Positions 53,610 to 64,000 of a stretch of DNA of 64,000 nt are shown here, piece by piece. How positions within the stretch are numbered: position 1 is the first letter of the stretch; every line of letters starts with the position of its first letter. The position numbers and the translations under genes are program-made. This DNA comes from Jiella endophytica (GTDB lineage: Bacteria; Pseudomonadota; Alphaproteobacteria; Rhizobiales; Rhizobiaceae), in NCBI RefSeq assembly GCF_004519335.1, contig NZ_SOZD01000001.1, positions 1 to 64,000 of the forward strand. The letters are read 5' to 3'. Under the pieces are notes generated by a model, which was not told the origin of the DNA, did no database searches, and was given only the letters and a program-made list of their open reading frames with translations.

Positions 53610-53954
53610 ATGACGATTTCGATCCTTCGTCCCGCGATTCTCGCGGCCGCCTGCATCGCCTGTGCCGCCCTGCCGGCGGCGGCGGCCGACGTCCAGACCA
53701 TCGAACTGACGCTGAAGGACCACAAGTTCTCGCCAGAGACGATCGAGGTGCCGGCGAATGAGCGGTTCCAGATCAAGCTGACCAATGCCGACGCCACGCC
53801 GGACGAGTTCGACTCGACGGATCTCAGGGTCGAGAAGGTGGTCGGCGGCGGCCAGACCGGCATCATCCGAATCCAGCCGCTGGTCCCCGGGCGCTATATG
53901 TTCATGGGCGAATATCATGCCGCGACGGCGCGCGGCATCGTGGTCGCGAAGTAG
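53610..53954 (+). CDS. Periplasmic cupredoxin-domain protein, partner of FTR1
   Basis: 114 residues with a signal peptide ending ALPAAAA (about residue 26), then a cupredoxin-like fold: KDHKFSPETIEVPANERFQIKLTN and LVPGRYMFMGEYHAATARGIVV. The usual Cys copper ligand is absent; the site would rest on Glu, His and Met. Such EfeO-cupredoxin-like proteins accompany iron permeases. It lies four bases before the permease gene. Confidence 0.85.
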   Translation: MTISILRPAILAAACIACAALPAAAADVQTIELTLKDHKFSPETIEVPANERFQIKLTNADATPDEFDSTDLRVEKVVGGGQTGIIRIQPLVPGRYMFMGEYHAATARGIVVAK

Positions 53955-53958
53955 TCCG

Positions 53959-54789
53959 ATGCTCGCTGCCTTCATCATCGTCTTTCGCGAGGTCATCGAG
54001 GCCGGTCTCGTCGTCGGCGTCGTGCTGGCGGCGACCCGCGGCCTTGCCGGGCGCGGCACCTATGTCGCCGGGGGCATCTTCGCGGGCTTCCTCGGCGCCT
54101 GTCTCGTCGCGGCCTTTGCCGGCGGCATCGCCGATCTCTTCGAGGGCTCGGGGCAGGAGGCGCTGAATGCCGGAGTGCTGATCGTCGCCGTCGCCATGCT
54201 CGTCTGGCACAATGCCTGGATGGCGAGCCACGGGCGTGAACTCGCCCGGGAACTGAAGGCTGTCGGCCATGCGGTGAAGGAGGGCAGCCGCTCGCTGATG
54301 GCACTTGCCATCGTCTGCGCCGTCGCGGTGTTGCGCGAGGGCTCCGAGGTGGTGCTGTTCCTCTATGGCGTCGCCGCGGCCGGCCAGACCACTGCTCTCG
54401 GCATCCTGTCGGGCGGCCTCCTCGGCATTGCCGGCGGCGCGGTTATCTCGGCGCTGCTCTATCTCGGCCTCATCGCCATTCCGCTGCGCCATCTCTTCGG
54501 CGTGCTGACGGCGCTGATCACCCTTCTGGCGGCAGGCCTCGCCGCGCAGGCGATGCGCTTCCTTGCCCAGGGCGGGTGGCTGAACGACTGGGTGACGCCG
54601 CTCTGGGATACGAGTTCGGTGCTTTCCGAGGCCAGCATTCCCGGCCGCGTCGCGCATGTGTTGTTCGGCTACATGGCCCAGCCATCCGCCAGTGAACTTG
54701 CCGCCTACCTCGCCGTCATCGCGGTGATGCTGGTCGTGCGCCGGGTCATCGGCCAGGAGACCGGCGGCCGGATGCAGGCCTCGGCCTGA
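53959..54789 (+). CDS. FTR1-family iron permease
   Basis: 276 residues, seven helices. Two REXXE iron motifs, FREVIEAG near the start and VLREGSEVV in the fourth helix region, define the Ftr1/EfeU family. With the preceding cupredoxin protein it makes an iron-uptake pair resembling a reduced EfeUO system; no DyP-type peroxidase (EfeB) gene is present. The start ATG 53959 is chosen because helix 1 with REVIE begins immediately. Confidence 0.92.
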   Translation: MLAAFIIVFREVIEAGLVVGVVLAATRGLAGRGTYVAGGIFAGFLGACLVAAFAGGIADLFEGSGQEALNAGVLIVAVAMLVWHNAWMASHGRELARELKAVGHAVKEGSRSLMALAIVCAVAVLREGSEVVLFLYGVAAAGQTTALGILSGGLLGIAGGAVISALLYLGLIAIPLRHLFGVLTALITLLAAGLAAQAMRFLAQGGWLNDWVTPLWDTSSVLSEASIPGRVAHVLFGYMAQPSASELAAYLAVIAVMLVVRRVIGQETGGRMQASA

Positions 54790-56268: not shown

Positions 56269-56697
56269 TCATACAGCCGCAACAACGTGCCCGGCGGCGG
56301 TGAGCGCTTCGGCCGCGCGGCCGGCATTCTCTGTCTTCACGAACAGATAGTCGGTGTCGAAGGTCGAGACGAGGAAGATCCCGATCCCCACCGCTGCCAG
56401 CGGTTCGAGCACGGCAGCCGCGATGCCTGTCTCCTCGAAGGCGAAGGGGCCGACGAACTGGAAGCCGCTCCACCCTGCATCGACGCGGACACCATCAGGC
56501 ACCCTCCCGGCCTCGCAGAGGATCGAAAGCTCTTCGCCCGTCCGGGAGATCGAGACGAAGCCTTCGCCGTCTGCCCAGTGCGGGATGGCCGCGTCCGGTC
56601 CGAGCCGGCTCACGGCATAGGTTTCTGGAAGGACCCGCAGCGTGATGCTGACCGGCGGTCTTCCATCTTCCGGCAAATCTCCGGCCGACACCGTCAC
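56269..56697 (-). CDS. ACT-domain (CASTOR-like) protein
   Basis: 142 residues with two ACT-like halves. YAVSRLGPDAAIPHWADGEGFVSISRTGEELSILCEA in the first and FAFEETGIAAAVLEPLAAVGIGIFLVSTFDTDYLFVK in the second match the ACT_7/CASTOR type. It probably binds a small molecule such as an amino acid; no partner is evident. It overlaps the exported-protein gene by four bases at its start, so it may be co-transcribed with the ABC cluster. Confidence 0.85.
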   Translation of the reverse strand: MTVSAGDLPEDGRPPVSITLRVLPETYAVSRLGPDAAIPHWADGEGFVSISRTGEELSILCEAGRVPDGVRVDAGWSGFQFVGPFAFEETGIAAAVLEPLAAVGIGIFLVSTFDTDYLFVKTENAGRAAEALTAAGHVVAAV

Positions 56698-57500
56698 AGC
56701 GCCTGTTCGGCGGCGCGGCCCAGCGCAAAGGCGCGTTGCTCGATCAGCGTCGGCACCTCGCAGACATAGCTCAGCGACTTGCGGCGCTCGTTGAAGACAC
56801 GGGTATCCCAGAGCACCCTCTGCCTGGCCTCGTCGAGGGCGGTCGGGTTTTCGGTCGGATTGTTCTGGCGGGTCGAGACGGTTTTCGCCTCCTCGCGCAG
56901 TTTCGCCGCAAGCGCCTTCTGCTTGGCGCCATAGCGCTCGATGCCGCGCATGATCTGGCCGCGTTCGGAATTGAAACGCGACAGAAGCACCGCGACGAAG
57001 GCGGTGGCCTGCTTTTCGCGCTCTGCCTCTGGCAGACCGCTCAGATAGTCCTTCACCGCGGCTTCCGCCTCGGAGAGCGGCGTGCGCCGCGCCGCCACCT
57101 GGTCGACGAGCCGGCGCAGTTCTTCGCCCGGATCGACCTCGGCGGCCTCCGGCAGCGGTGGTCCGGCCCAGATCTGCCCGGCCGAAATCTGCTCGACCCG
57201 TCGCTGGATGCAGGGCCAGTCGGTGGTCGCGGGGGCCGGGGCCTTGGCGAAGGCCATCGGGTTCTTCGTACCGCCGGTCTTGCCCTCGGCGGGCGGCGCG
57301 CCTGCGGAGGGGGCATTGCCGGTGCCGGCCGGCGCGTTGGTCGGCGCCGGGCCGGGCAGCACGAAGCCCTTCGGGATCGGCTTGGACGTGGCGCCATCCT
57401 GGGCGAAAGCGAGGCTTACCGGCGCAAATGCGCTGAGCGCCACGATCACGCCCGCGGTCACCCAGCGGTTCGCCCGTCTGACGACAAATTCTTTCGCCAT
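56694..57500 (-). CDS. Exported protein with WPC motif, in the position of LutG
   Basis: 268 residues, signal peptide about 1-33 (VIVALSAFAPVSLAFA), then a Pro/Ala/Gly-rich linker to about residue 90. TDWPCIQRRVEQISAGQIWAGPPLPE begins the folded part, with Cys97, and a second Cys is at about 247 (SLSYVCEVPTLIEQRA). The long helical middle has a charged pattern. No enzyme family is recognised. It follows the ABC permease, matching the place of the exported lutG product in Methylobacterium lut clusters; that is a positional inference. Confidence 0.65.
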   Translation of the reverse strand: MAKEFVVRRANRWVTAGVIVALSAFAPVSLAFAQDGATSKPIPKGFVLPGPAPTNAPAGTGNAPSAGAPPAEGKTGGTKNPMAFAKAPAPATTDWPCIQRRVEQISAGQIWAGPPLPEAAEVDPGEELRRLVDQVAARRTPLSEAEAAVKDYLSGLPEAEREKQATAFVAVLLSRFNSERGQIMRGIERYGAKQKALAAKLREEAKTVSTRQNNPTENPTALDEARQRVLWDTRVFNERRKSLSYVCEVPTLIEQRAFALGRAAEQAL

Positions 57501-57540
57501 GAGTTTTCCTCCCGTATTTTCCTGACGCTTTCTCCCGGCG

Positions 57541-58386
57541 TCACTGCCGCTTGCGGCTGATCAGCCCGCGCGCCGGATCGTAAGCGATGATCGCCCCGCC
57601 GAGAAACACCACCGTGCAGCCAAGGACGATCGCCAACGCCTGAAGGTTCAGCTCCCGGTAGAGGGCGAAACGCACGAGCTCCACCGCGTGGGTGAACGGA
57701 TTGACCTGGCAGATCCGGTAGAGCAGCGGGCTCGACTCCTGCACCCGCCAGAGCGGATAGAGCGCCGAGGAAGCGAAATACATCGGGAAGATCACGAAAT
57801 TCATCACCCCGGCGAAATTCTCCAGCTGCTGGACGAGCGAGGACAGGAGCATGCCGAGCGCGCCGAGCATCAGCCCGGCCAGCAGGATCGCCGGCAGCGC
57901 GTAGAGATAGCCCTGCCAGTCGGGCCGCACTTCCCAGAACCAGGCGATGGCGAGGAAGACATAGACCTGGACGACGCCGACGGCGACACCGGCGCAGAGC
58001 TTCGAGACGAGCAGGAACCAGCGCGGCAGCGGCGAGACGAGCAGCGTCTTCATCGTCCCCGTCTCGCGGTCGTAGACCATCGACAGCGACGACTGCATGC
58101 CGTTGAAGAGCAGGATCATGCCGATCAACCCGGGCGCGATGTAGACCTCGTAGAGGACATAGGTCTGGTAGGGCGGGATGATCGAGACGCCGAGCACCTG
58201 GCGAAAGCCGGCGGCGAAGATGAACAGCCAGAGCAGCGGGCGCACCAGCGCCGAGACGAAGCGTTCGCGCTGATGGATGAAGCGCAGCGCCTCGCGCCAG
58301 GCGATGCCGCCGGAACAGACCAGATAGGCCGAGAGCGGAAAGCCGCGGCGCACCGGCGTGGCAGTCTGGATCGTCGCTTCGCTCAT
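57541..58386 (-). CDS. ABC transporter permease of a PQQ-dehydrogenase-associated system
   Basis: 281 residues, ABC-2 type with six helices; FIHQRERFVSALVRPLLWLFIFAAG and the YEVYIAPGLIGMILLFNGMQSS segment are typical of the ABC-2 permeases found beside PQQ alcohol dehydrogenases (lutF/pedC-like). It forms a heteromer with the ATPase, whose gene overlaps by one base. Direction of transport (uptake or export) cannot be settled by sequence; ABC-2 members are usually exporters. Confidence 0.9.
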   Translation of the reverse strand: MSEATIQTATPVRRGFPLSAYLVCSGGIAWREALRFIHQRERFVSALVRPLLWLFIFAAGFRQVLGVSIIPPYQTYVLYEVYIAPGLIGMILLFNGMQSSLSMVYDRETGTMKTLLVSPLPRWFLLVSKLCAGVAVGVVQVYVFLAIAWFWEVRPDWQGYLYALPAILLAGLMLGALGMLLSSLVQQLENFAGVMNFVIFPMYFASSALYPLWRVQESSPLLYRICQVNPFTHAVELVRFALYRELNLQALAIVLGCTVVFLGGAIIAYDPARGLISRKRQ

Positions 58387-59216
58387 CAGGCCACTCCCTC
58401 CGGCTGAGCGGCCTTGGCGCGCACGCCCGTCAGCCGGGTGAAGGCGTCGCCGATCGAGCGGGCGCCCTGTGCGGCGACGATGTCGGGCACGAAGCCTTCG
58501 GCGAGCACCTCTCCCTGATGCAGCACGACGACCCGGTCGCCGGCGTCGATCTCATCGATCAGATGCGTCGCCCAGAGGACGCTGACGCCCTCCTCATGCA
58601 CAAGCCGCCTCACTTCGGAAAGGATCGCGGCGCGCGAGCGGACGTCGAGGCCGACGGTCGGCTCGTCAAGCAGGATGAGGCGTGGCCGGTGCATGAAGGC
58701 GCGGACGATCTCGATGCTGCGAAGCTGGCCGCCGGACAGGTTGCGGGCCTTCTCTTTCAGCCTCGAACGCAGCTCCGATGTCGCAAGAATCTCGCCGATG
58801 CGGGTTTTCGCCGCCGATGCCGGCAGGCCGTGCAGGGCAGCGTGGTAGATGAGGTTCTGGCTGATCGACAGGTCGAGATCGAGGGTTCTAGCCTGGAAGA
58901 CGACGCCGAGCCGGCGCAGCGCCTCGCCAGGATCTTTGGACAGGTCGAAGCCGAGAATCCGGATGGCGCCGTGCCGGACGTTGAACAGCCGGGTGATCAG
59001 CGAGAACAGCGTCGACTTGCCGGCACCGTTCGGCCCGAGGAGGGCGGTGAAGGAGCCCTGCGGCACCGTGAAGGAGACATCGTTCAGCGCCTTGCGCTGG
59101 CCATAGGAATGGCTGACCCGCTCGACGGCGAGTGCCGGGAGGTCGTCCGCCGGATGGGGGCCGTTCAGCTTGCCGTCCTGCATTGCCGCTTTCGCTCTTT
59201 CAGGCGCCTCTGCCAT
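58386..59216 (-). CDS. ABC transporter ATP-binding protein, PQQ-associated type
   Basis: 276 residues. Walker A GPNGAGKST at 61-69, signature LSGGQLRSIEIVRAFMHRP, Walker B LILLDEPTVGLD, switch His in VLWATHLIDEI. A 30-residue polar N-terminal tail precedes the domain. It fits the LutE/PQQ_ABC_ATP type, energising the permease next to it. Confidence 0.92.
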   Translation of the reverse strand: MAEAPERAKAAMQDGKLNGPHPADDLPALAVERVSHSYGQRKALNDVSFTVPQGSFTALLGPNGAGKSTLFSLITRLFNVRHGAIRILGFDLSKDPGEALRRLGVVFQARTLDLDLSISQNLIYHAALHGLPASAAKTRIGEILATSELRSRLKEKARNLSGGQLRSIEIVRAFMHRPRLILLDEPTVGLDVRSRAAILSEVRRLVHEEGVSVLWATHLIDEIDAGDRVVVLHQGEVLAEGFVPDIVAAQGARSIGDAFTRLTGVRAKAAQPEGVA

Positions 59217-59295
59217 GGAACAGATAGGGCAGTCGCGCGAAACGGCCGAGGCCGCGGAGACAGCCGCGGCCTCGGCCGGTGTTCGGATATTGTGG

Positions 59296-59928
59296 TCACT
59301 GGACGACGGTGATCGTCCCTTCCATCACGTGATCCTCGTCGAGGCCGCCGACCTTCCATTCGTAGCGGCCGGGGCGCACGGTCTGGAACTGGACGGTGAT
59401 CGTGCCGTGGGAGTCGTATTCGAGCCAGGCCGGGGCGCCGGCCATGTGCACCTCGAGATCGTCGATGACGATCTGGTTCATCCAGACGTTCCGGAAGAAG
59501 TCCGGCGCGTTGAACTTGTACTCGATGTCACCCTCGGACTTGATGTCCCAGCGATAGGCCTGGCCGGCCCTGAGATAGAAGTCCTTGTGGTTGGTCTTGA
59601 AGGCGTCGCCGCCGACGCCGAGGATCAGCGGCGTGACGATCTGCGAGGTCAGGCTCTTCTTCGGCAGGCCGAGCATGTCGCCGTTGAGCGCCGCGGCGGG
59701 CATCAGCTCCGACCCCGGCGGAACCTTCAGCCCGTCGGCTGCGGGCACCAAGCTGGCACTCTGGCTGGCACCGTCGCTATCGTCGTCGTCATCAGCCTTG
59801 GTGGTGGCGGCGCCGGCCGCCGGCTTGTCATCGTCGTCGTCCGCCTGGGCGAAGGCGGGGCCGGCCGGCGCGGCAAGGAGGCCGAGGCCGAAGAGCGCCG
59901 CCATCAGTGCGAGCCAGGGTGATTTCAT
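59296..59928 (-). CDS. Aspartate-rich exported protein with cupredoxin-like C-terminus
   Basis: 210 residues with a signal peptide (cleavage near AFA-QA at 27). The mature N-terminus has two runs of five Asp (30-34 and 46-50) separated by an Ala/Thr stretch. The C-terminal ~120 residues (FRNVWMNQIVIDDLEVHM, LEYDSHGTITVQFQTVRPGRYEWKVGG) look like a beta-sandwich. In the lut comparison it would stand with the exported lutC/lutD products. Lanthanide or calcium binding by the Asp runs is a hypothesis. Confidence 0.7.
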   Translation of the reverse strand: MKSPWLALMAALFGLGLLAAPAGPAFAQADDDDDKPAAGAATTKADDDDDSDGASQSASLVPAADGLKVPPGSELMPAAALNGDMLGLPKKSLTSQIVTPLILGVGGDAFKTNHKDFYLRAGQAYRWDIKSEGDIEYKFNAPDFFRNVWMNQIVIDDLEVHMAGAPAWLEYDSHGTITVQFQTVRPGRYEWKVGGLDEDHVMEGTITVVQ

Positions 59929-59970
59929 GATGTCAGTCCTCCCGAATTGCCTGCGATTTTCGAATGCCGC

Positions 59971-60951
59971 TCACTTCGGCGTCACGGCGACGCCCCATGG
60001 CTGCTGGCCGACCTGGACCGACTTGATCACCTCGTCGTCCTCGACGTCGATGATCGAGATGTCGTTGGAGAGGCCGTTGGTGGTGAAGAGGTATTTCTGG
60101 TCCGGCGAGAAGGCGAGCTGCCAGACCCGCTGGCCGACGAGGAGATAGTCCTCCACCTCGTAGGTCGCGGTATCGACCACCGCGACGCGATTGGCGGGGC
60201 CGAGCGCGACATAGGCCTTCTTGCCGTCGTCCGTGATGCGGATGCCCACCGGCTGGATCGCCTCGGAGCGGATGCCGGGGATCTCGAAGCTGATCTTGTG
60301 GGTGATTTCCTTGGTCGCCGCGTCGATCACCGAGACCGTGCCGCCAATCTCCGCCGAAACCCAGATTTCCGAACCGTCCTTCTTGTACTGGGCAAAGCGC
60401 GGCCGGGAATCGACGAGGACGTTGGCGGTGATCTGCTGGCTGTCGCGATCGATGAAATGCGCCATGTTCGTCGTCTCGGACGTGTTGACGATCGTCTGGC
60501 CGTCCGGCGAGACGCCCATGCCTTCCGGTTCCACGCCGACCGGAATCTCGGCAAGGCGCCCGCCGGTCTTCAGGTCGATGACGGTGACGAGGTTGTCGTC
60601 CTCGTTGGCGGCATAGAGCTGGTCGCCGTTGGGAGACAGCGTCAGGAGTTCGGGATCGGGGCCGGAGGGAAGCGTCCGTTTGAAGGCGTGGGTCTTCGTG
60701 TCGAATTCCTTGATGATGTCGTCGTCGCTGGTGCAGACGTAGAGCGAGGCGCCGTCCGGGCTGACGGCGATGCCGCGTGGCCGCTGACCGACCTTGAAGG
60801 TGTCGATGACGGAGAACTCCTTCTCCGAGTCGAGCACGGTGACGTCGTTGCCCTTCTCGTTCGAGACGAAGATCTTGTAGGCGAAGGCCGGGCTCGCGGG
60901 CAGCATGAGCGCCGCGGCAAGGGCCGCCAGTGACAGTCGTTTCAATACCAT
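59971..60951 (-). CDS. YVTN beta-propeller protein, PQQ-catabolism-associated
   Basis: 326 residues with signal peptide (ALMLPASPAFA-YK). Seven blades repeat the pattern GxxPxGIAVSPDGxxLYV: VGQRPRGIAVSPDGASLYV, LLTLSPNGDQLYAANE, VEPEGMGVSPDGQTIV, VWQLAFSPDQKYLF and the closing QQPWGVAVTPK. The family occurs beside PQQ dehydrogenases and ABC genes. The ATG is one base from a GGGAGGA site, too close; the in-frame TTG at 60945 (seven-base spacing) may be the real start. Confidence 0.9.
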   Translation of the reverse strand: MVLKRLSLAALAAALMLPASPAFAYKIFVSNEKGNDVTVLDSEKEFSVIDTFKVGQRPRGIAVSPDGASLYVCTSDDDIIKEFDTKTHAFKRTLPSGPDPELLTLSPNGDQLYAANEDDNLVTVIDLKTGGRLAEIPVGVEPEGMGVSPDGQTIVNTSETTNMAHFIDRDSQQITANVLVDSRPRFAQYKKDGSEIWVSAEIGGTVSVIDAATKEITHKISFEIPGIRSEAIQPVGIRITDDGKKAYVALGPANRVAVVDTATYEVEDYLLVGQRVWQLAFSPDQKYLFTTNGLSNDISIIDVEDDEVIKSVQVGQQPWGVAVTPK

Positions 60952-61241
60952 TCCTCCCTGAGCCGGACCCGGCCATCGCCGGCATCGTCCGGCCCCTTCA
61001 TGCGCCATCGCGCATCGCCCGTCGACCGCGTCGATCCTACGGCGCCGCTCAGCTCGATCCCGGACCGGCCGGTCACGCCCGGCGAACAGGGGCACATGGA
61101 CCCTGGCGCGCGTGTCGTCGAAGCGAGCCTCCCGTCTCGCCTGGCGGTGCCCGGCGCCCCCCGGGACCTGTCCTTGGGAGCGACAAGCCCCGAGGAGCAC
61201 CAGCGTCCAAACTGGTAGCTTATGAAATCGCCACCCGGCAA
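60942..61241 (-). CDS. Doubtful small gene or decayed lipoprotein upstream of the beta-propeller
   Basis: The 320-base gap between regulator and beta-propeller contains a 99-residue frame from TTG 61241 whose stop overlaps the TTG at 60945 (TTGA). It is Arg/Gly/Ser-rich and resembles nothing known. In another frame, LPVWTLVLLGACRSQGQ looks like a lipoprotein signal with a LGAC lipobox but has no start codon. The gap may hold a frameshifted lipoprotein gene, or just a leader. Confidence 0.25.
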   Translation of the reverse strand: MPGGDFISYQFGRWCSSGLVAPKDRSRGAPGTARRDGRLASTTRAPGSMCPCSPGVTGRSGIELSGAVGSTRSTGDARWRMKGPDDAGDGRVRLREEWY

Positions 61242-61271
61242 CGGGACAACTTCCCGGAAACCGGCGGCCGA

Positions 61272-61907
61272 TCAGTCGCCGCTGTCGAGCATCCTGCCGC
61301 CCTTGGTCTCGAGGGCAAAGCGCACGAGATCGGAGGTGCGCTCGACGCCGAGCTTCTCCTTCATCCGGGTCGAGGTGTTGGCGACGGTCTTGTAGGCGAC
61401 ACCGAGCCCGTCGGCGATTTCTGACAGGCTCTTGCCGTCGCCGAGCATGTGGAGGATCTGCAACTCCCGCCGGGTGAGATCGCCGACGCCGGTCTCCCGC
61501 GTCGCATGGTCCTTCATCAGCGCCGCGGTTTCGCTGTCGACATAGGGCTCGCCTGCGACAGCTTTCTCGACCGCCACCAGCAGCTCGTCCGACGGCGCGC
61601 TCTTGGAGACGTAGCCGAGGGCGCCGTCGCGCCTGGCCGAAACGGCATAGACGACGTCGGAATACATCGAGAAGACGACGATCCGCGCCTTCGGATCGTC
61701 GGCCCGCAGCCGGCGCAGCACGTCGAGCCCGCTGCCGTTCTTGAGGTTGATGTCGAGGATGGTGACGTCCGGCCGCATGTTGCGGAATTCGCGCAGCGCA
61801 TCGGAGGGGCTCTCGGCCTCGCCGATCTCGGTCACCGGGATGGTCTCCACCAGCCGTCTGATGCCATCCCGGACGACCTTGTGGTCGTCGACGATCAACA
61901 GTTTCAT
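61272..61907 (-). CDS. NarL/LuxR-type response regulator
   Basis: 211 residues. Receiver domain MKLLIVDDHKVVRDGI with phospho-acceptor Asp52 in VTILDINLKNGSG and Lys in YVSKSAPSDE, then a LuxR-type HTH (LTRRELQILHMLGDGKSLSEIADGLGVAYKTV). It overlaps the kinase gene by four bases. Regulators of this class (for example AgmR/PedR2 and ExaE) control PQQ alcohol dehydrogenases in pseudomonads, so the cluster is its likely target. Confidence 0.93.
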   Translation of the reverse strand: MKLLIVDDHKVVRDGIRRLVETIPVTEIGEAESPSDALREFRNMRPDVTILDINLKNGSGLDVLRRLRADDPKARIVVFSMYSDVVYAVSARRDGALGYVSKSAPSDELLVAVEKAVAGEPYVDSETAALMKDHATRETGVGDLTRRELQILHMLGDGKSLSEIADGLGVAYKTVANTSTRMKEKLGVERTSDLVRFALETKGGRMLDSGD

Positions 61908-63319
61908 CGTCCGTCCTTCGCTGCGGCCATGGCGTTCGCCGCCGCCGTTTCGTCGAGTCCCAGTCTATCCTCGCGGCGAGGAGGCTCGGCAAGGCTGCGC
62001 CCGCCGAGCGGCACCGCGCCGCTCACCCGGACGCCCCGCGGCGTCTTCGTCTCCTCGACAATCATCGTGCCGCCGGCCGCCTCGATCCGCTCGCCCATGC
62101 CGACCAGGCCGAAGCCGCCGTCGCCTCGCGGCCGGGTGAAGCCGCCGCCATCGTCGATGATCGTGAAGTTCAGCCGTCCGGGATGCTCCGCAACCTCGAC
62201 GGCGATCCTCGACGGATCGCCGTGGCGCAGCGCATTGGTGACGGCCTCCCGGACGGCGCGATGGACCAGCGTCTCGATGGTCGCGCCGAATTCGCCGTCG
62301 GCAAGGGTGAGGTCGAATTCGACGTCCGGGTGGCGTGGCTGAAGATCGGCGACCATCTCCTCGATCGCCCCCTTCAGCCCGAGGCCGGACGTCGCGCCGG
62401 GCCTGAGATTGCCGAGGATCCGCTTCAGCTCCCGCCGCGCCTCGTGAGCCGCGGCGGCAATCGCCCCGGCACGCTCCGCGATGATCTCCTTGCGGGGCGA
62501 TCCGTCAGCCGCCGCGCGCCTGATGCTCGAGGCATCGACGTCGATGGCGAAGAGCAGCGGGCCGACATCGTCGTGAAGATCGCGGGCGAGTTCCGCCCGT
62601 TCCTCGTCCTCGAGATGGAGAAGCCGGTCGGAAAGCCGCCGGTTGCGGTCCGAGATCGCGGCGAGGCGCTCGGTCATCGCATTGAGGCCGCCGGCGAGCT
62701 CCCGCATTTCCGGCGGGCCCTCAGGTGCGACCTTGGCCGAATAGTCGCCGTCGCCGATCCGGGAAAACGATGCATGGATCGCGTCGAGCGGCTTCAGCGC
62801 CCGATCCGCCACCACCCAGACCGCCCCGAAGGCGATCAGCAGGAACAGGACGAGAAGGCCGAGAACGATCAGAAGGTCGAGCCAGGCGTCGGCAAGTTCG
62901 TTGCGCGGATCGACGATGACCGCGACGGAGGTGATCGGGGCCGAGGCCGCCGTCAGCGGCATGACGACAGTCGAGGGATCGGGAGCGAGAAGCTTCACGA
63001 ACCATTCCGGCAGCAGGCCGGACTCCTTCGCCATGACCGATTCGTCACGGATGACGCCGACGGAATCGATGAGGATGACCTTCACCCGCCGGTCGCCGTT
63101 GAAGGTGCGCACGAAGCCGGCGAGCTTTCCCCGGACGTCGCGCGAGGCCGGAAGCTCGGCGACCATCTGGGCGACGCGGTTGGTGGCGACGCTGCGTGCT
63201 GCCTGAAGCTCGGTGGCGATGGTGTCGCGTGCCTGGAAGAAGGTGAGGACCGCGCCGATGACAAGGATCGCGACGAAGGCGATCGTCAGTGTCAGGGCAA
63301 GGCGGGCCTTCAGCGACAT
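61904..63319 (-). CDS. HisKA_3-type sensor histidine kinase
   Basis: 471 residues. Helix 1 (ALTLTIAFVAILVIGAVLTFF), a ~115-residue periplasmic sensor, helix 2 (LLIVLGLLVLFLLIAFGAVWVV), HAMP (about 170-220), phospho-acceptor ERAELARDLHDDVGPLLFAI, and HATPase motifs DDGGGFTRP and GFGLVGMGERIEAAGG. The start MSLKARLALT is preferred; the frame continues 39 codons upstream without protein-like text. Signal not known; a metal or alcohol is plausible from context. Confidence 0.92.
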   Translation of the reverse strand: MSLKARLALTLTIAFVAILVIGAVLTFFQARDTIATELQAARSVATNRVAQMVAELPASRDVRGKLAGFVRTFNGDRRVKVILIDSVGVIRDESVMAKESGLLPEWFVKLLAPDPSTVVMPLTAASAPITSVAVIVDPRNELADAWLDLLIVLGLLVLFLLIAFGAVWVVADRALKPLDAIHASFSRIGDGDYSAKVAPEGPPEMRELAGGLNAMTERLAAISDRNRRLSDRLLHLEDEERAELARDLHDDVGPLLFAIDVDASSIRRAAADGSPRKEIIAERAGAIAAAAHEARRELKRILGNLRPGATSGLGLKGAIEEMVADLQPRHPDVEFDLTLADGEFGATIETLVHRAVREAVTNALRHGDPSRIAVEVAEHPGRLNFTIIDDGGGFTRPRGDGGFGLVGMGERIEAAGGTMIVEETKTPRGVRVSGAVPLGGRSLAEPPRREDRLGLDETAAANAMAAAKDGR

Positions 63320-63569
63320 GGGACTGGCCGCCCGGCGGCAGCGCCACTCGCTGGCCTTCCCTGCCGGGACGCTCGCTGGTGAAGGTTGAGACGCATGGTG
63401 GGTCCGCATCCGACTGCAGCCGAAATGTCCGCACATCGTTGCAGGCTTGCGGCTGCGGCCGTCAACGCCTCGCCGTCCTTGGAGCGGTATCCGGGAGCGA
63501 CGAGGCCGCGAGGCGCTCCGATGTCATGGCTTGCCGGTGAACCGAGCGAAACTGGATCGCGTTCGGGCG

Positions 63570-64000
63570 TCACTTGTCGAAGTTGCAGGTCGATTCCGGC
63601 CGGTCGAAGCCGAGCGTGTCGAGCTCCGAGACCTGATGCAGGAAGCCTTCCTGGGGCGAGGACGAGACGACCGAATCCTCGGTGCCGAGCAGCACCGGCT
63701 GGCGCAATTGCCAGTCCCAGTCGCGGAAGGTCAGGCGCTGGCCCTTGAAGGCGGCGACGGTGAAGTCCTTGGAGCGGATGAAGGCGTCGATCTTTTCCGG
63801 ATCGGTCGACTGGGTCCGCGAGGCGGCCTCGCCGATCACCCGCACCGCGGTCCAGGCCTGCATGTCCTTCGATTCCATCCGCCGGCCGGAGGCGTCCACG
63901 AAGCGGTTCTGGATCTGCGCGCCGCCCCACTGCTCGCTCGCCGGATGCCATGAGCCGGGGACGAGCCCGGCGGTGCCGGCGACAGGCCGGGGGATCCAGG
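63570..64000 (-). CDS. ABC substrate-binding protein, PQQ-dehydrogenase-associated, cut by the window end
   Basis: The C-terminal ~143 residues are visible; the start lies beyond 64000. PVAGTAGLVPGSWHPASEQWG then NRFVDASGRRMESKDMQAWTAVRVIGEAA and ENPFLRADD-like end RPESTCNFDK match the branched-chain-type binding proteins found with PQQ alcohol dehydrogenases (LutA/PQQ_ABC_bind). 250 bases separate it from the kinase start, enough for a kinase promoter. Probable first gene of the system. Confidence 0.85.
   Translation of the reverse strand, partial: WIPRPVAGTAGLVPGSWHPASEQWGGAQIQNRFVDASGRRMESKDMQAWTAVRVIGEAASRTQSTDPEKIDAFIRSKDFTVAAFKGQRLTFRDWDWQLRQPVLLGTEDSVVSSSPQEGFLHQVSELDTLGFDRPESTCNFDK

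Follow-up and report, generated by a model that had tools for sequence, protein, structure and literature searches.

The window examined here, that is, the whole stretch of DNA analysed, comprises the first 64,000 bases of contig NZ_SOZD01000001.1 (C11) of Jiella endophytica, whose 5.25 Mb genome is assembled in 28 contigs. At its end, on the minus strand, lies a transporter cluster of the lut/ped type with an embedded two-component system. In order of transcription, the genes encode a TIGR03863 binding protein, a HisKA_3 sensor kinase, a NarL-type response regulator, a TIGR03866 beta-propeller, an aspartate-rich exported protein, a TIGR03864 ATP-binding cassette (ABC) ATPase, a TIGR03861 permease, and a further exported protein (Table 1). 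This set had been claimed in an earlier note on the same DNA, and inspection of the open reading frames (ORFs) and profile matches, gene by gene, found all its members on the minus strand. Since their order is kept in relatives, a chance origin of the set is excluded. The regulator and kinase genes overlap by 4 bases, and one base is common to the ATPase and permease genes. The kinase start was chosen by homology with its relatives, while the longest ORF extends to 63436.

Table 1. Features of the cluster, in order of transcription (window positions).
Feature	Position	Strand	Remark
Periplasmic binding protein, TIGR03863, lutA/pedA-like	63570..64000	-	continues to contig position 64826
HisKA_3 sensor kinase, MoxY/MxaY-like	61904..63319	-	two membrane helices, HAMP, weak LapD_MoxY_N match
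NarL/LuxR-type response regulator	61272..61907	-	
Conserved dyad GGGAAN4TCCYGTTG, candidate operator	61239..61255	-	16 bases 3' of the regulator gene
Gap	60952..61271	-	holds a small PepSY-like exported protein gene in 11/14 relatives, none here
Beta-propeller, TIGR03866, lutB-like by position	59971..60951	-	
Exported protein with Asp-rich linker	59296..59928	-	no database family
ABC ATPase, TIGR03864, lutE/ped-like	58386..59216	-	
ABC-2 permease, TIGR03861 PedC, lutF-like	57541..58386	-	
Exported protein, lutG-like by position	56694..57500	-	no database family

Four of the encoded proteins scored above the curated cut-offs of their NCBIfam families: the binding protein over its whole length (488 bits, cut-off 413.6), the propeller (503 bits, cut-off 287.3), the ATPase (336 bits, cut-off 302) and the permease (398 bits, cut-off 241). 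The lut/ped row of binding protein, propeller, exported protein, ATPase, permease and exported protein is present and is split here by the kinase/regulator pair. By profile and order, the cluster is a member of the lut/ped ABC family. The earlier note had proposed this membership together with a profile comparison to check it; because the matches lie inside rather than outside the lut and pyrroloquinoline quinone (PQQ)-associated ABC families, and a PQQ dehydrogenase gene (xoxF) was found in the genome, the proposal stands. From the NCBIfam families and the published account of Lut homologues, which share 40-60% identity in Bradyrhizobium and Sinorhizobium and include no obvious lutH in S. meliloti (PMC12628762; here and below, papers are cited for the portions of their text available to us), we infer that the cluster is homologous to LutA-LutG. 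The last exported protein, labelled 'WPC' by the earlier note, had no Pfam or NCBIfam match at E ≤ 0.001, and its best PDB match had E = 0.52. For the Asp-rich protein, the AlphaFold model was too poor for a structure search (mean confidence score, pLDDT, 43). The idea that this protein is peculiar to the window was rejected, since acidic runs of at least four acidic residues occurred in 15 of the 24 other loci scanned.

The embedded pair is conserved among close relatives. In named genomes, the nearest matches of the kinase came from six Jiella, one Aurantimonas and one Fulvimarina (68-75% identical), the ninth being a Phycicoccus protein with 29% identity. All eight of these Aurantimonadaceae loci (L096-L103) keep the order kinase, regulator, propeller, Asp-rich protein, ATPase, permease and exported protein. 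Six of them have the binding protein ahead of the kinase, whereas L096 and L097 yielded none; the kinase match of L102 is split over two frames. Six further genomes (L121-L126) all showed kinase, regulator and propeller in succession, with the binding protein ahead in five and elsewhere in the genome in L123. Of the 101 genomes in a family sample, 26 encoded a binding protein scoring above the cut-off. Thirty binding-protein loci were available, and 27 were inspected after exclusion of three low-scoring fragments (L179-L181): the next gene was a kinase in 7 and the propeller in 18, while the propeller came first in one and neither was present in another. A non-random order sample of 19 loci (two from same-family genomes and 17 of the 30 best-scoring propeller loci) held no embedded pair, and a MoxY-like pair stood beside the binding protein in two (L054, L055). 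In L127, L128, L130 and L131, differently arranged, such pairs also adjoin the binding-protein gene or a fragment of it. The pair had been called unusual, which holds for the order sample and fails for the cluster's own relatives; the cluster represents a known system in a variant conserved at family level.

In a tree of 26 kinases, the 14 embedded kinases formed a single clade (100/99). L102 was left out because of its split match, and L120 was not counted, being from the same genome as L099. The kinases of L127, L128, L130 and L131 fell outside this clade, and those of L054 and L055 grouped with a Methylocystis mxa kinase (100/96). Because of long branches (the window strain's own paralogue, Paracoccus MoxY and others), only the embedded clade and the grouping of L040 with L054/L055 are used firmly. 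With the deeper forks weak, the simplest reading of the tree is that the embedding arose once and that MoxY-type pairs became neighbours of the binding-protein gene on more than one occasion. The related kinases next to lut genes in other lineages were apparently recruited separately.

A second conserved element is the dyad GGGAAN4TCCYGTTG, which 13 of 15 loci (the window, L096-L103 and L121-L124) carry near the 3' end of the regulator gene. It lies 9-41 bases after the regulator stop codon in nine of these loci and 218 bases after it in L124, and it overlaps the end of the gene in L100, L102 and L121. L125 has the dyad with one change in the alignment, and L126 lacks it. None of the other loci of at least 3000 bases compared at that stage contained it. 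In the genome of the window strain, the only exact sites are this one and its counterpart in the assembly copy of the cluster described below; ten further sites with one mismatch were found, fewer than with the backward control (23). About 58 bases beyond the dyad in the window lies a second stretch, CTCCCAA(A/G)G, which six of eight rows of an alignment show (L098 has it with one change, and L124 is not aligned at that place). Shared ancestry explains part of the dyad conservation, so that the close Jiella loci weigh little and the more distant L122-L124 weigh more.

Between the dyad and the propeller, 11 of 14 relatives carry a small exported-protein gene, which is missing at that place in the window strain, L101, L122 and L126. 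The small protein of L125 matches PepSY_2 with 26.2 bits (cut-off 24.3), while that of L098 had no Pfam match; a search of the window strain's genome with the L098 protein found nothing, which is a weak negative. As Lanpepsy is a lanthanide-binding protein of Methylobacillus (cited in PMC11996626), a small PepSY-like gene would fit a lanthanide role by analogy only. In L126, regulator and propeller are 1425 bases apart, and a long ORF between them looks by eye like a 6-phosphogluconate dehydrogenase.

The domain make-up of the kinase was compared in an alignment of 23 kinases, all with HisKA_3 and HATPase_c, 22 with HAMP and 17 with LapD_MoxY_N at E ≤ 0.01. As in MoxY/MoxX-type systems, the window kinase combines HisKA_3, HATPase and HAMP domains and adjoins a NarL-type regulator. 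Ahead of the second membrane helix, 22 of the 23 kinases share a glutamate in the motif DPxxExAxxW (E141 in the window kinase, whose periplasmic domain spans about residues 30-150); only the strain's own paralogue on contig C5 lacks it. This residue is perhaps the one called E147 in MxaY of Methylomicrobium buryatense, a widely conserved position at which a change locks the kinase on (PMC5018670). A structure model of the window kinase (pLDDT 62.8) recovered only a DesK-type kinase core and nothing firm on the sensor part. The periplasmic region of PedS2 is described as different from LapD/MoxY (PMC6115532); judged by that description of PedS2, the domain make-up of the window kinase resembles MoxY/MxaY more. 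A search of plasmid records returned 58 with a kinase match, and in all four that were opened the kinase adjoined methanol or alcohol dehydrogenase genes. The likeness to PedS2/PedR2 seen by the earlier note is upheld in part, by the gene neighbourhood of the kinase family. The paralogous pair on C5 (L132, 6691-8702) consists of a distant MoxY-type kinase (tblastn 26%), which lacks the conserved glutamate, and a regulator; it is divergent from ORFs that by eye resemble MoxR-type ATPase, DUF58 and vWA genes.

The genome has the genes expected around a methanol-oxidizing enzyme. Profile searches of the contigs gave PF01011 matches in three loci. One of these, on contig C23, is XoxF (TIGR03075, 753 bits, cut-off 480), whose best PDB match is 6oc5 (1032 bits) and which carries the D-x-D motif as WDYDGVN. 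The same locus encodes a XoxJ-type TIGR03871 protein (288 bits, cut-off 212), a TIGR03865 CXXCW protein (219 bits, cut-off 128) and a cytochrome that falls slightly short of the TIGR03874 cut-off (157.4 bits against 161.75). The other two PF01011 loci fit the glucose/quinate type TIGR03074 better than TIGR03075, with one score just over its cut-off of 832.65 (838.8) and one under it (546.9). No second PQQ dehydrogenase of the methanol/ethanol family was found in the genome with PF01011 and the NCBIfam profiles, so there is no calcium/lanthanide enzyme pair to switch. The pair under study does not adjoin a PQQ methanol/ethanol dehydrogenase gene, xoxF being on C23, and no kinase or regulator was recognised in the 20 kb around xoxF. 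In four of the six further genomes (L121, L122, L125, L126), xox genes lie within the same 20 kb as the pair. A looser dyad, GGGA-N5-TCCC, between xoxF and the cytochrome gene was dropped as a candidate because it is not at that place in L121, L122 and L126. Also near xoxF (L009, 14174-15762) are a second, YNCE-like propeller and an SRPBCC-type protein, and in Paroceanicella a propeller gene and an SRPBCC gene stand together near the lut row.

Beyond the window, and divergent from the binding protein, follow a PF11684 (DUF3280/DUF2380) gene, a 4HFCP synthase/FolB fusion, an amino-acid-kinase-family gene and a DUF6513/pterin-binding gene. We take these genes to belong to methanofuran/methanopterin synthesis. 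Similar methanofuran-type genes are found near mch and fae in Phyllobacterium, and the present genome contains two Fae genes. The window had been described as lacking a TonB receptor, LanM and a dehydrogenase, and indeed every match to PF01011, PF00593 or EF-hand_5 in the genome falls outside it. The genome-wide look for partner genes that the earlier note proposed turned up xoxF with its cytochrome, XoxJ-type and CXXCW genes, though on another contig, and neither a TonB receptor nor lanM linked to the cluster. None of the four PF00593 matches is within 240 kb of the cluster on C11, the nearest being at C11:305931 (the neighbours of the four receptors were judged by eye). LanM was not found, a single sub-threshold EF-hand_5 match (E 0.021) lying in an unrelated-looking ORF; this is a weak test, as the short profile may miss LanM.

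The closest known systems include the lut and ped clusters. The lut genes of Methylorubrum extorquens AM1 came from a transposon screen, with mutants defective in growth on lanthanum (PMC7391723), and both they and PedA1A2BC of Pseudomonas putida are required for lanthanide-dependent growth (PMC6839425, PMC7391723). The AM1 cluster shares with ours xoxF-based methylotrophy and the functional order of binding protein, exported protein, ATPase, permease and exported protein, a likeness of families rather than of direct sequence comparison. In contrast, it includes lutH, encoding a TonB receptor, and lanmodulin, neither of which was found linked here, and the available text of PMC7391723 mentions no kinase/regulator pair. 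The ped system (PMC6839425, PMC6115532, PMC12997753) resembles the present one in its ABC families, in the absence of LutH and in having a kinase and a LuxR-type regulator (PP_2671/2672) in the transporter cluster (PP_2667-2669, PP_5538). Since PedS2-PedR2 are placed in the ped cluster together with the transporter (PMC12997753), a two-component pair near this transporter is already known. However, the P. putida pair switches between PedE and PedH, whereas here no such enzyme pair was found, the pair lies inside the transporter row and a dyad precedes the propeller; moreover, the periplasmic domain of PedS2 is described as distinct from LapD/MoxY, to which the window kinase shows a weak match. 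The pairs of Paracoccus (MoxY/MoxX, also MxaYX) and M. buryatense (MxaY) are alike in joining a HisKA_3 kinase with a LapD/MoxY domain to a NarL-type regulator (PMC5018670), but they are located at mxaF, while ours is in a lut cluster with xoxF on another contig.

The lut-type row also occurs in Phyllobacterium, Rhizobium and Paracoccus alcaliphilus plasmids, but with no pair between binding protein and propeller. In Phyllobacterium the row is flanked by methanofuran-type genes on one side and by pqq and PQQ dehydrogenase genes on the other. The P. alcaliphilus row (L135, 13579-18213) has an internal PepSY gene (23.9 bits, just under the cut-off) and a kinase/regulator pair directly after it, which is another layout of transporter and sensor. 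In the titles and abstract openings searched, which covered few subscription journals, nothing described a pair placed between the binding-protein and propeller genes together with a conserved dyad; there was no literature on Jiella and xoxF, and there were four papers on Aurantimonas and xoxF.

In the explanation that we favour, with confidence somewhat above even, this is a lut/ped transport system serving XoxF under local control of the embedded pair. The ABC system would supply lanthanide for XoxF-based methanol oxidation. The kinase would read a cue of periplasmic methanol oxidation, either lanthanide status or the state of methanol and XoxF, through its LapD/MoxY-like domain and would phosphorylate the translationally coupled NarL-type regulator. 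This in turn would act on the dyad just 3' of its own gene, ahead of the propeller-to-exported-protein genes, and the MoxY/MoxX-type pair would thereby control the transporter half of the cluster. By analogy with lut and ped, a lanthanide is quite probably the cargo, and the family makes import by the transporter likely. Genomic context argues for control of the transporter genes by the pair, which we regard as probable, and suggests a local switching of import to match demand. Direct sensing of lanthanide by the pair is doubtful.

Several observations count against this explanation. The permease belongs to a fold, ABC-2, whose members are often exporters, and DrrB-like models match it as well. 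The LapD_MoxY_N match of the window kinase reaches 20.6 bits, below the cut-off of 25, and no lanthanide-binding motif was recognised in the sensor. As 18 of the 27 binding-protein loci have the propeller straight after the binding protein, the transporter also occurs without an embedded pair. The strict dyad was found ahead of neither xoxF nor the binding protein, so that it does not tie the pair to the dehydrogenase. Finally, the transporter of P. putida is reported not to be needed for the switch (PMC6839425), while a review of ped states that the metal must reach the cytoplasm for sensing (PMC12997753); the sources thus disagree on where the metal is sensed.

The strongest alternative, to which we give slightly less than even weight, retains the cluster and its control and replaces the signal: as in the Paracoccus mox/mxa XYZ system, methanol, formaldehyde or the periplasmic oxidation state would be read, and lanthanide would not be sensed. 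Relatives of the kinase adjoin mxa genes in Methylocystis and Paracoccus (moxZ too) and PQQ alcohol dehydrogenase genes in Gemmobacter and Azospirillum, and the lack of a second methanol/ethanol-family dehydrogenase leaves no calcium/lanthanide pair to be switched. On the other hand, MxaY of M. buryatense, from the same named family, is required for the lanthanide switch (PMC5018670), and the pair lies in the transporter cluster and not at xoxF. At the opposite end, the cluster may tentatively be seen as a lanthanide import operon with a dedicated MoxY-type periplasmic lanthanide sensor, one internal operator and, only XoxF having been found, no calcium/lanthanide enzyme switch. If true, this would represent homeostasis of rare-earth uptake, separate from the known dehydrogenase switch.

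It is rather unlikely that the ABC system moves another cargo, for example that it exports a compound derived from an alcohol, or handles PQQ or a factor for dehydrogenase maturation. The NCBIfam name of TIGR03861 is 'alcohol ABC transporter', the fold is of the DrrAB exporter type, and the binding protein shows a weak relationship to leucine-binding proteins (best E 1.7e-4) and none to known metal-binding ones; against this, the growth defects of lut and ped mutants are lanthanide-specific (PMC7391723, PMC6839425). It is very improbable that the pair is a mere passenger with no function there: most lut loci of the family sample do without it and the binding protein is not ahead of it in L096, L097 and L123, but it precedes the propeller in 14 of 14 loci traced (8 + 6), the dyad between them is kept, and MoxY-type pairs on other tree branches lie beside the binding-protein gene (L054, L055, L127, L128, L130, L131).

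The interest of the local control that we favour lies in the question of how bacteria sense lanthanides, direct metal binding by PedS2 or MxaY being only proposed in the literature. The pair, one transporter transcription unit and one conserved candidate operator, with no visible mxaF, would make up a system of two variables, metal and methanol, and the lack of a visible mxaF would leave a metal/methanol test free of confusion with an enzyme switch. Through the cluster, the way in which Aurantimonadaceae control their rare-earth uptake would become accessible to study.

The 7.3 kb cluster block has a 100% identical copy on contig C24. From base 1 of C11 and base 242254 of C24, the contigs are identical over stretches of 13.7 kb and 18.7 kb, and they agree at seven of ten sampled points, through about C11:178 kb, the three later points differing. 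We rejected two cluster copies as a biological feature because the identity starts exactly at base 1 of C11; redundant assembly is the simpler reading, and a very recent large duplication is not favoured.

Downstream, an A9CJY8-like/ACT-domain gene (56269-56697, minus strand) overlaps the last exported-protein gene by 4 bases. The same gene stands after the cluster in each of the eight loci L096-L103; the other nine loci scanned showed none. About 2 kb from the cluster, on the plus strand (53610-54789), two ORFs resemble by eye a cupredoxin-like exported protein and an FTR1-type iron permease.

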